The notes below the pieces were generated by a model that worked only from the letters and a program-made list of their open reading frames with translations, searched no databases and was not told the DNA's origin. 64,000 bases of DNA from Micractinium sp. NFX-FRZ (taxonomy: Eukaryota > Chlorophyta > Trebouxiophyceae > Chlorellales > Chlorellaceae). Each line of letters starts with the position of its first letter. Within the stretch, counting starts at the first letter, position 1. Positions 1 through 64,000 of this stretch are shown here, one piece after another. The stretch covers positions 124,001 through 188,000 of the forward strand of contig JAPTJF010000063.1 in NCBI GenBank assembly GCA_029339195.1, written 5' to 3'. The position numbers and the translations under genes were made by a program.

Positions 1-1960
1 ACAGAGCCGAACCAGAGTGCTCAAAGCCCAGCACCACACCCACCCCTCTGCCCAGCCTTGACCAAAGCAGGTCTTCCCACCCAGGGTCCAGCACCACGCC
101 CACCAGCGCGCCAATCAGCAGGCCCACCTCACCCACTGTCCGCTGCCCCACCTCGGCAAGCAGCACACGGGGAGCGCACCCGAGTCGAGCACCACATCCG
201 CCAGGCCATGCCAACCTGTCATTGAGCAGGTTGACCTCGTCCATATACAGGATGCCCGCTGCCCCACCCCAGCAAACAGCACAGAACAAAGCGCACCAAA
301 AGCCCAGCACTGCTCCCACCACAGCAGCTCCACCCACCCGAGTCGAGCACCACATCCACCAGTCCGTCGTCCAGCAGGTTGACCTCGTCCACATACAGGA
401 TGCCGCGGTTGGCGCGCGCCAGCAGCCCCGGCTCGTACGCCTTAACGCCCTCCGTCAGCGCCTTCTCAATGTCAATGGTGCCGCAGATGCGGTCCTCTGC
501 CAAGGGGGAAATGGGGGAGGGGGTTAAGCGCATTCAATGGCGGTTGCATTGAGTTGCCAGCGCCTTGTCAGCATCAATGGTGCCGCACATGCGGTCCTCT
601 GCAGTGCACAGCAGAGCGGACACAGGCAGGCAAAGTGAGCGGTGAACTGCAGGCAGCCAGGGTTCCCGGTCGGCACAGGACACACACCGCTGCACAGATC
701 TCGCACAAACGGCAGCGGGGGGCGCCACAACGCTTGCTCCGCGTGCCCAGCCCAGCCCAGCCCAACAGACTGCTGCTTCCCTGGCTGCTATGAAGCTGCC
801 GGCATCGCAGCTGAAAAGTCGTGGTGTGCGCCACATAGGCTGCACCAGCTGGCGGCCACTCATATGCCACCACCACGTGCCAAGGCAGGCAGCTGCGTCA
901 CATCCAGGCCCCCACCGCAGCTTGCTCCCTCTCTGCCAGCTCTGCTCAATGCATGCCCGCCGCCCCGCCCGCCTCCCCCCATGCGCCTGCCATCCCCCGC
1001 TGCCGCCTCACCGGTGGCCCCCAGCGGCAGCTCCACCAGCGGCGTGCGCATCTGCGTGGCCGGCAGCTTCTCCCCCTTTGCATACAGCGGCAGCGCGTCG
1101 GGCCCCATGAGCTTGGGGTCTGCATGTGGGGTGGGGCAGGGCAGGCGGTGGAGGGGCGTATGTCAGGTAGGGAGGGAAGACAGGTGCTGGTTGCGTGGGG
1201 AGGGTCTGAAGGGATCCAGGAATTGGTGCGAGGGGATGCTGTGCCGTCGTGCCCCGCACGCAGGGGCGGGCAGACGAGAGGGCGGCGGCGGAGCAGCGCC
1301 AGGCCCGACTGGCGGCGGGGGAACGAAGGTGCACTGGCAGTGTGCCGCTGCTGCTGGGGCGCTTGGAAGCAGCAGCAGAGGCATCCAGCTGGGTAACCGC
1401 CAGAGGAGCTGCGCGGAGCTGCGGCCTACAGGCTGCCACCCACCCGCCCGCCCGCCCGCCTGGCGTCCCGCCCACCCGCCCGCCCGCCTCCCCGCCTCCC
1501 CAGTCTGCACGGCTCCACCCCTCCCCAGGCCTTGCGCACCGGTGGGGTGAGAGTTGAAGGGGCTGTCCGGCACAATGTCGATCATGGGCAGCAGGTCGAC
1601 CAGGGCGCGGACGGCAACCGACTTGCCGGTGCCGCGGTCGCCCATGATCAGCACGCCGCCGACAGTGGGGTCAACCACGTTGAGCAGCAGCGCCAGCTTC
1701 ATGTCGTCCTGGCCCGCCAGACGCGTGAAGGGGAACGCCGGGCGCTTCTTGGCCTTGGGGGCGTCGGGCGCTGCCACGGCAGCGACCAGCAGGCGAGAGC
1801 GGAGGGCCGGCTGCTGCCGCGCCTGCCGGCGCGCCGGGAACGCTGCCTGAAGCCCAGTGCGTGTGCTGGCTGCGCCCCGCGCCGGGGCGAACGCCGCGGA
1901 GGGCGCTGCCTGGCGCTGAAGGCTCTGCATGGTGTGCGCTGGGGTCCTAGAGGGCTGCAA
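1..1960 (-). CDS. CHLI: Magnesium chelatase subunit I (CHLI, AAA+ ATPase), 3' end beyond the window
   Basis: This is the AAA+ motor subunit of Mg-chelatase, which with CHLD and CHLH inserts Mg2+ into protoporphyrin IX in the plastid (family knowledge). Exon 1 (1540-1960) starts with a basic, Ala-rich leader that looks like a chloroplast transit peptide, then a conserved segment with the Walker A motif GDRGTGKS. Exon 2 is 1012-1119. Exon 3 (338-496) carries GTIDIEKALTEGVKAYEPG and the Walker B stretch ILYVDEVNLL. All three junctions are phase 1 with GT-AG ends, and the joins recreate family residues. The next expected segment (AGGWNTVE-type) is not in the window, so the last intron exceeds 337 bp. 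Translation may begin at 1960 or at an in-frame ATG at 1930. The segment SHPTDPKLMGPDAL resembles CHLI2-type more than CHLI1-type sequences from memory. That paralogue assignment is an inference. Confidence 0.9.
177..262 (-). repeat. Echo of CHLI exon 3 3' edge with its donor
   Basis: Positions 177-199 are identical to 335-357, which is the end of CHLI exon 3 plus its GT donor. Positions 223-255 again match the DEVNLL-coding part of that exon, with an altered spacer between. The copy is in the same orientation and lies in the intron after the exon. Fainter copies of the same edge, with a VVLDPG-like reading, appear near 82-115 and 5-55. Confidence 0.8.
562..602 (-). repeat. Echo of CHLI exon 3 5' edge with its acceptor
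   Basis: The 41 bases 562-602 match 460-500 at 36 positions. The match covers the CAG acceptor and the first codons (EDRMCGTIDADKAL, against EDRICGTIDIEKAL in the exon). The copy sits in the intron before exon 3, on the same strand. Confidence 0.85.
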
Positions 1961-2755
1961 TTAGCTGCCGGAGGATACCTGACAACGTTGAACACAAATC
2001 CAGGCGTTGGTTTCGCGCCCGGCAGCGAGGCTGCTGTGGCTGAAATCGAGATGATGACACGCTGGCCGGGGCACCCCGTTTCCTGCCATGTCGGGTAGCG
2101 CTATGGCAGCGCTTTAAACTGCACTTGGCGTCGTGTGTAAGGTAATGAGCGTCCCTACATCGCCGGGGCAGCGCAAGCTTGTCGCAGCCTCCGTGAGCAG
2201 CGGTGCAGAAAGGCACAGCCCGCGTCAGCTGAAGTAGGTACACATATTGCGTGCATCAACCATGCCGATGTGCTCCACCTGAGCGCCTGCTCCAGCCCTG
2301 CCGCCACTTCTGCCGCCACCGCTGCCGCCGCTGCGGCTGTGGCCCGCGCTTGCGAGCTGAGCAACCTACCCCTAATCACACTAGGGCTACTACTCTCACT
2401 ATGTTTAGCATTGGAGAATCAGTACATGCATGCTTGTGGAATAAACGGATGCGGGATGAATGGATTATGTTGGTTTATGGTATGCCAGCAGCGGAAAGCC
2501 CTCTGGGAGCGGCTGCGGCTGACAGGGGCGTGCCCGCCCAAGCAGTCGGGACATTGGCACTTACAGCAAGGTGCAACGGCTACCAGCAGGGGGTTGCAGC
2601 AGGGCGCAACACTTCAAAGGCGGAGCTCCCATAAAAGGTGGCAGCAGATCAGGCACTGGGAATTGGGGGGCGCTTGGGTGGGAGAGGCTCGCAGGGCCCG
2701 CAATCAAGTGGCTGCCAGCACGCCCGTGCCCGCATGCTTGGTCCCGGCCAGCCTG
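1961..2755. other. Intergenic region between CHLI start and importin-9 stop
   Basis: I see no convincing gene. Both neighbours are on the minus strand, so the right part should hold the importin-9 3' UTR and the left part the CHLI promoter and 5' UTR. A minus-strand TGTAA signal lies at 2561-2565. Confidence 0.5.
2561..2565 (-). terminator. TGTAA polyadenylation-type signal, importin-9
   Basis: The plus strand reads TTACA, which is TGTAA on the minus strand, about 190 bases past the importin-9 stop codon. TGTAA is the usual green-algal polyadenylation signal. The link to this gene is inferred from position. Confidence 0.4.
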
Positions 2756-63340: not shown

Positions 63341-64000
63341 ATGAGCGTCAAGCAGTGGTTGCTGCTGGCTGCCGCCCTGTCAGCCCTGGCGCTGTTGCAG
63401 TGGCCGCTGAATGGCACGCCCTCCCCCGGGGTTGCGCCCAGGCTGAAGCACTGGGCGGACAGCATGGCGCAGCAGCAAGCTGTCAGCATCTCCCACGTGC
63501 CGCCGGCACCGCCGACGCCGCAGCGGTGCCAGTTGGATGTCGCCGCATCTCCCTGGGCAAGCCACTGCCAGCGTCTGCAGCACGTGTGCCTGGACCAGTC
63601 GACCATCATCCTGTATGGTGATGAGTATCAGGAGGTGGACGGGCAGGTGGCGGGGGCACTCCCAGCGCTTCTGGTGTCGCCGGACAAGGCACGTGGGTGC
63701 TGGGCAAGCCCGGGGGGGGCAAGGAGGTGCTGGGTCAAACGGGCTCTGGGCAGGCTGCTTCCTTGTGCCACGGTGGCCACGGTGCCACGGTGCCCCCCCC
63801 ATGCAGCGCCGCTGTGGGGCGAGTGAGGCAGTGCGTCATGGGCCAAAGGGAGGGGCGACAACCCAACCCGAGTGCTGCTTGCAGGTGTTTGCATGGCCCT
63901 GGCGCGGCAGGCTGGCGGACGGCAATGTCAGCGGGACTGCAGTTACGCCGGCGGCGGAGACGGCAGCGGACGAGCACGCACAGCACCAGCCGCGGCGGCG
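63341..64000 (+). CDS. Secretory/type II membrane protein, possibly a GT61-type glycosyltransferase, 5' part only
   Basis: The first exon (63341-63690) begins MSVKQWLLLAAALSALALLQ, a signal-anchor, followed by a Pro-rich stem. It then has CQRLQHVCLDQSTIILYGDE and EVDGQVAGALPALLVSPDK. The VCLDQ..I.LY pattern recalls the entry region of GT61-like Golgi glycosyltransferases in Chlorella-type algae, as far as I remember. The catalytic part is outside the window. The second exon starts after CTTGCAG near 63882. A phase-0 join gives VFAWPWRGRLADG but would need a GC donor (AAG then GCACGT at 63691). The GT donor four bases later gives another frame (VCMALARQAGG). Confidence 0.5.

Follow-up and report, generated by a model that had tools for sequence, protein, structure and literature searches.

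How do introns come to carry copies of the edges of their own exons? The question is raised by a 64,000-nucleotide stretch of Micractinium sp. NFX-FRZ (the window), which covers positions 124001-188000 of contig JAPTJF010000063.1 (C63; 192,325 bases) in a genome of 66.07 Mb in 838 contigs. Introns of this stretch contain same-strand copies of the adjoining exon edge together with its splice site, which we call exon-edge echoes. In this study, we analysed the entire C63 (192 kb) and, as a replicate, an independent 50 kb of contig C20, giving 242 kb together. We confirmed that exon-edge echoes are real and frequent. They probably derive from local tandem duplications spanning the exon-intron junction, with a possible extra copying or homogenisation of the exon edge in about half of the units. 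Duplications of this kind are already known; the quantity of echoes here is unusual, and the mismatch between the two halves of a unit is unexplained. Among the open-licence papers listed in literature searches, there was no account of such echoes in Chlorella relatives, and neither the echo frequency nor the half-unit mismatch was met in the same searches.

Introns were predicted with a self-written ab initio gene finder based on a hidden Markov model, which was trained on C63 and used on both contigs. The identical model gave 345 introns on C63 and 83 on C20 (428 in total). The outermost 50 nt of each exon edge were then searched against introns (score of at least 15), with the wrong-side intron, a length-matched random intron, and the reverse complement as controls. 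When both contigs were pooled, 54 of 812 exon edges matched the adjacent intron, compared to 3 of 734 for the wrong-side intron, 0 of 812 for the random intron, and 1 of 812 for the reverse complement. The corresponding counts were 41/658, 1/596, 0/658, and 1/658 on C63, and 13/154, 2/138, 0/154, and 0/154 on C20. An echo at this score was present in 48 of the 428 introns, about one in nine. A local repeat search (distance 20-800, low complexity removed, merged pairs, score of at least 20) found 117 direct repeats on C63, one 63-bp minisatellite block included, against 1 inverted repeat and 0-1 in five shuffles. In the 50 kb of C20, 25 direct repeats were found against none inverted and none in one shuffle. 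Both contigs show the direct orientation and the side expected of a tandem duplication across the junction. The original prediction had stated this rule, which held in the 242 kb with 3 wrong-side matches in 734.

The window census (score of at least 17) gave 21 exon-intron, 9 intron-intron, and 2 exon-exon pairs. The 21 exon-intron pairs fall in seven genes: importin-9 (7), the ARMH5 plastid protein (3), the 2H-like gene (3), GH127 (3), CHLI (2), URB1 (2), and an unnamed gene at 58070-62901 (1). At least fifteen cases had been claimed for the window. The CHLI model agrees with solved ChlI proteins at the exon edges that bear echoes, and Pfam supports the importin-beta N-terminal domain, ARMH5, ALG3, and GH127. 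The 2H-like gene has a Pfam match to 2_5_RNA_ligase2 below the family cut-off. Importin-9 and URB1 are provisional labels taken over from the original prediction. The echoes of the window are as follows, in window coordinates and with identity in percent.

456-602, minus strand: CHLI acceptor echo; edge 456-500 of exon 338-496, copy 558-602 including the acceptor, spacing 102, 89%; intron halves unlike.
225-404, minus strand: CHLI donor-side echo; 3' part 373-404 of exon 338-496, copy 225-256 in the following intron, spacing 148, 97%; a gapped unit reaches the donor (spacing 158).
6798-6995, minus strand: importin-9 acceptor echo; edge 6798-6856, copy 6937-6995, 83%.
7199-7450, minus strand: importin-9 acceptor echo with two copies; edge 7199-7241, copies 7297-7339 (77%) and 7420-7450 (84%).
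9617-9778, minus strand: importin-9 donor-side echo; exon 3' part 9737-9778, copy 9617-9658 in the following intron (105 nt), at its end, 79%.
9834-9965, minus strand: importin-9 acceptor echo; edge 9834-9871, copy 9928-9965, 89%.
10222-10365, minus strand: importin-9 acceptor echo; edge 10222-10267, copy 10320-10365, 85%; the intron half aligns too.
11408-11582, minus strand: importin-9 acceptor echo; edge 11408-11462, copy 11528-11582, 87%; the intron half aligns too.
14467-14876, minus strand: ARMH5 plastid protein donor echo; edge of exon 14814-14938 plus two more units at a spacing of 157-160; the intron half aligns.
15673-15832, minus strand: ARMH5 plastid protein acceptor echo; edge 15673-15726, copy 15779-15832, 80%.
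21157-21376, minus strand: 2H-like donor echo; edge 21317-21376, copy 21157-21216, spacing 160, 80%.
21885-21988, minus strand: 2H-like acceptor echo; edge 21885-21907, copy 21966-21988, spacing 81, 91%.
22089-22254, minus strand: 2H-like donor-side echo; exon 3' part 22224-22254, copy 22089-22119, spacing 135, 84%.
42437-42537, minus strand: URB1 acceptor echo; edge 42437-42477, copy 42497-42537, spacing 60, 83%.
40495-40597, minus strand: URB1 donor echo; edge 40573-40597, copy 40495-40519, spacing 78; a weak case with an edge score of 15.
47032-47172, plus strand: GH127 acceptor echo; edge 47133-47172, intron copy 47032-47071, spacing 101, 40/40 identical; intron halves unrelated.
47221-47352, plus strand: GH127 donor echo; edge 47221-47237, copy in the following intron, spacing 115, 16/17; the intron half is alignable with gaps.
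51533-51670, plus strand: GH127 acceptor echo; edge 51649-51670, copy 51533-51554, spacing 116, 22/22.
58674-58817, minus strand: donor echo of the unnamed gene 58070-62901; edge 58785-58817, copy 58674-58706, spacing 111, 88%.

The original prediction spoke of six genes and named seven. CHLI, importin-9, the plastid protein, the 2H-like gene, URB1, and GH127 each carry echoes, but ALG3 is borderline at most. Among the 18 ALG3 edges listed, the top adjacent score was 13.0 (exon 17870-17887 against 17779), and no filtered local repeat in this gene reached a score of 13. The predicted ALG3 protein itself is 72-74% identical to Micractinium proteins, 64% to Chlorella vulgaris, and 84% to one further match. 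Distances of 60-310 bases had also been given. Echoes were found in this range, but the 310-base case is probably the pair 24258-24298 / 24567-24607 in the 2H-like gene (78%, spacing 309), which was rejected as an echo. Because the model places both copies in frame in two predicted exons, this pair is under that model a coding repeat, in which a short peptide motif recurs.

In a typical acceptor echo, intron sequence is followed by gcag and the first 20-50 nt of the exon; a further 50-100 nt of intron with an acceptor at its end then leads to the real exon. Donor echoes are the mirror image. The spacing was 100-120 bp in 30 of 82 exon-intron pairs on both contigs, with a peak near 110 bp and a similar mode on C63 and C20. 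Intron-only pairs showed a weaker excess at 100-120 bp (9/38). For 58 pairs with a spacing of 80-200, a normal or log-normal distribution fitted better than a truncated exponential. The mode at about 110 bp may also stem from survivorship, as the spacer needs a functional acceptor tract. Spacing modulo 3 was even (29, 26, and 27 pairs for remainders 0, 1, and 2), and therefore no selection on reading frame is seen. Introns with an echo were longer than the others (median 384 vs 253.5, P = 1.4e-6), by about one unit. Some introns hold at least three units, such as the CHLI intron that precedes the exon ending at window position -2353 (by eye) and that of the ARMH5 gene at 14467-14876. A major route of intron growth had been suggested; the contribution is only moderate, since visible echoes of about 110 bp in 48 introns make roughly 5 kb in the 242 kb.

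Duplications wholly inside introns provide a comparison for those at junctions. With spacing of 60-220, 66 exon-intron pairs and 25 intron-only pairs were counted in the 242 kb, the minisatellite block being excluded and echo-to-echo pairs being scored as intron-only. Two simulations gave exon-intron to intron-only ratios of 0.81-0.87 to 1 and 1.30-1.33 to 1. Against the higher ratio, the observed count has a hand-calculated P of about 0.002. Both simulations assume an age range and the present intron lengths; the difference would be smaller if ancestral introns had been shorter. The suggestion that intron-only duplications are equally common and just harder to see fits these counts poorly. 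The outcome that would have refuted the original prediction, junctions no richer in copies than intron interiors, was thus not seen in the 242 kb, but the surplus at junctions amounts to no more than about two- to threefold and depends on the model.

Each unit has an exon half and an intron half, and the intron halves were compared in 38 testable units (of the 54 edge matches, those at most 6 nt from the junction, with spacing of at least 60 and flanks of at least 40 nt). The intron half was significantly similar in 15 of the 38 units (shuffle p < 0.05), with about 2 expected by chance. Therefore, whole units were duplicated at least in those. Mismatches between echo and exon numbered 44, 48, and 76 at codon positions 1, 2, and 3. 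In pairs with identity of at least 0.86, 36 of 71 mismatches fell at position 3, and the mismatches of these closer pairs fit a freely drifting echo and an exon changing at synonymous sites. The idea that echo copies are coding alleles was discarded: a third-position excess of 10/13 in young echoes fell to 11/19 in a larger unbiased set.

The splice sites of the copies were also examined. The decoy AG was kept in 18 of 23 units and the decoy GT in 9 of 15 (38-unit table), and in 15/27 and 11/25, respectively, in a wider set. For 14 decoy acceptors with a dissimilar intron half, the mean score of the upstream tract was 3.34 compared to -2.20 in position-matched windows (P = 3.8e-5); real acceptors scored 5.08. 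As a group, the tracts before these decoy acceptors are acceptor-like, and we read them as descending from the tail of a real acceptor.

An echo at C63:43563 is common to a paralogous block about 13.4 kb away. A count on the printed alignment gives differences at 3/29 positions in the echoes, about 15/168 in the intron halves, and 1/72 in the exons. Because the paralogous block shares the echo with such divergences, this echo is old and no artefact, and its rate of change is close to that of the intron. It is older than the local segmental duplication. A comparison of two genes in this cluster, B and C, yielded no second shared echo; the introns compared there are not homologous. The tandem segmental duplication itself (C63:43354-50000 / 56754-63441; window -80646 to -74000 and -67246 to -60559) extends over several kb of introns and intergenic DNA at about 77-86% identity, has a further, more diverged copy beyond, and is usable as a neutral clock. 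In addition, three loci were queried, with their intron halves covered, against the 66 Mb, and each query matched nothing beyond its own locus and the echo there. The remaining units were compared with the 242 kb only, and the copies elsewhere that would mark an introner or mobile element were not found.

In the mechanism that we propose, small tandem duplications, mostly of about 100-120 bp, would span the exon-intron junction and may arise from the repair of staggered breaks or nicks. The spliceosome would stay with the outer site, that is, the first donor or the last acceptor. With the outer site kept in use, the coding sequence would therefore be unchanged, the intron would be one unit longer, and the duplicated edge would be stranded in it with its splice site, where it would decay neutrally. 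For roughly half of the units, re-copying of the exon edge, or a process that kept its two copies alike, may have acted while the intron halves diverged beyond recognition; short-tract gene conversion or template switching between 20-50 bp repeats are candidate routes. The duplication part is backed by the direction and side rule, the homology of intron halves, the echo shared with the paralog, and the mismatch pattern. That exon edges undergo active re-copying into their echoes, or homogenisation with them, over 20-50 bp, leaving decoys near-identical while the flanking intron turns over, is a tentative suggestion, possible rather than probable.

Several results weigh against this combined reading. 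The gene models are purely ab initio. Intron-half similarity was not detectable in 23 of the 38 testable units. In a drift simulation, tandem duplications were placed uniformly on echo-free introns and drifted, with a detection similar, not identical, to that used on the data; the intron half stayed recognisable in 95% of cases at an indel ratio of 0.2 and 91% at 0.5, and in 99% at an echo identity of at least 0.94. The real intron half was recognisable in only 15 of 32 units (spacing of at most 180) and in 5 of 10 high-identity units. Where tails could be aligned (842 of 1525 nt), their divergence was 0.196 compared to 0.103 in the echo, a ratio of 1.9 against a drift expectation of roughly 1.5. 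No residual homology at the expected offset could be demonstrated in the dissimilar units (10 of 19, with 7.5 expected, P = 0.18); the enrichment of best matches at this offset, strong by eye, was gone against that composition control. Pairs with identity below 0.86 had no third-position excess (113/338), and the donor tract test in 7 dissimilar units gave P = 0.09. The acceptor-like tracts could also reflect copying that was primed at acceptor-like sequence. No homogenisation was seen as such, and the echo had drifted freely at the sole locus with a paralog. Hypervariable introns were considered as a cause of the unlike intron halves and found no support, as the halves are not hypervariable at that locus.

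The strongest alternative, which we regard as rather unlikely, is templated insertion, in which the exon edge alone (20-50 nt with a few nt of splice site) would be copied by out-and-back template switching primed at splice-site-like intron sequence. It would explain why near-identical echoes adjoin unrelated intron halves, as in GH127 (0/36 mismatches), C20:71055 (1/42), and CHLI (2/40), and why the queries that covered the intron halves of three loci matched no further copy in the 66 Mb. The match also runs a median of 6 nt into the intron (at most 8 nt in 64% of 67 exon-intron pairs), though medians of 15 and 5 were obtained in the drift simulation. However, templated insertion does not account for the intron-half homology in 15 of 38 units, template switching should yield some inverted copies and hardly any exist, and the sequence before decoy acceptors is acceptor-like, unlike position-matched windows. 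Because the spacing range appears alike in both classes and the decoy acceptors are acceptor-like, homogenisation is tentatively preferred to templated insertion.

Plain tandem duplication followed by neutral drift, with no bias and no further step, was the reading of the original prediction and is improbable. It correctly predicts direction, side, and splice site; the exon share of the match in the drift simulation (0.72-0.78) is also near the observed 0.79. It fails on intron-half similarity, as drift would leave 91-95% of the halves recognisable; duplication with decay explains only roughly half of the copies tested. In the simulation, echo identity correlated with intron-half similarity (Spearman +0.56 and +0.49), compared to -0.04 in the 38 units. 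When the simulation was matched to the echo divergence of each unit, 28, 20, and 14 of the 38 units lay below the 5% level at indel ratios of 0.1, 0.3, and 0.6. Moreover, the intron halves are not hypervariable at the sole locus with a paralog, and the ratio of exon-intron to intron-only pairs is above that simulated.

It is very unlikely that the echoes are functional, as decoy or regulatory splice sites under selection. The retention of decoy AG and GT in the 38-unit table and the acceptor-like tracts kept as a group are in line with selection, but the mismatches look neutral, the spacing ignores the reading frame, the echo at the paralogous locus diverges like its intron, and site retention is, by estimate, at or below that left by 10% neutral divergence. 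Least credible is an assembly artefact, such as two haplotypes joined out of register: diverged haplotypes would give a conserved exon half and an unlike intron half, but the 38 echoes range from 78 to 100% identity with neutral rather than coding mismatches, an echo is common to paralogous blocks, three loci lack a second copy in the assembly, and two contigs show a similar spacing mode.

Tandem duplication with splice-site sequence is known from other systems. In a potato RdRp gene, a tandem duplication crosses an intron-exon boundary (PMC4974935). As in the alga, the duplicated segment crosses the boundary, copies of exon and downstream intron lie between two boundaries, and the splice signals come from the parent junction. 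In contrast, the potato gene gained a new intron with its donor inside the exon copy, whereas in the alga, according to the models, an existing intron is lengthened and the coding sequence is unchanged; potato is also a single case, compared to about one intron in nine here. The Drosophila cases (PMC2891723) likewise involve local tandem duplication with splice-site sequence, but there exon sequence was duplicated and an intron created, whereas the alga duplicates an existing junction and enlarges an existing intron. Small tandem duplications arise at breaks with 3' overhangs through CST-Pol alpha-primase and end joining, the staggered ends being filled in before they are joined (PMC8355091). 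These are also direct tandem units from local DNA repair, and by analogy the process may be a candidate mutational source for the algal echoes, although that work concerned induced breaks in mouse stem cells and describes the units as short (<100 bp). Direct repeats have also been described near the borders of 213 introns (PMC11782384). These lie near splice junctions as the echoes do, but they are 4-30 bp repeats around both borders, read as insertion scars and not as exon-edge copies.

Other repeats were observed on C63. At C63:106101-106252 (window -17899 to -17748), a 111-bp duplication contains a modelled 99-nt intron whose acceptor lies in the second of the two coding copies; by eye, this stretch also looks open in frame, so that it is either a newborn intron or a coding repeat. 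A large minisatellite of 63-bp units lies in a predicted intron at C63:5037-5825 (window -118963 to -118175), and GGCA/CAGG tetranucleotide arrays lie in predicted introns at window positions 34624-34674 and 59778-59892. The GH127 gene has a long histidine- and serine-rich coding stretch within the predicted enzyme (window 50026-50624, by eye).

The echoes represent a mutational route of intron growth that can be dated and counted. They hold a built-in control, since the exon half is constrained in one copy and the intron half in neither. At the density found here, extrapolated from the 242 kb, the genome could hold thousands of such natural experiments. These would bear on how the spliceosome chooses the real site beside a near-identical decoy, and on the origin and homogenisation of small tandem duplications.

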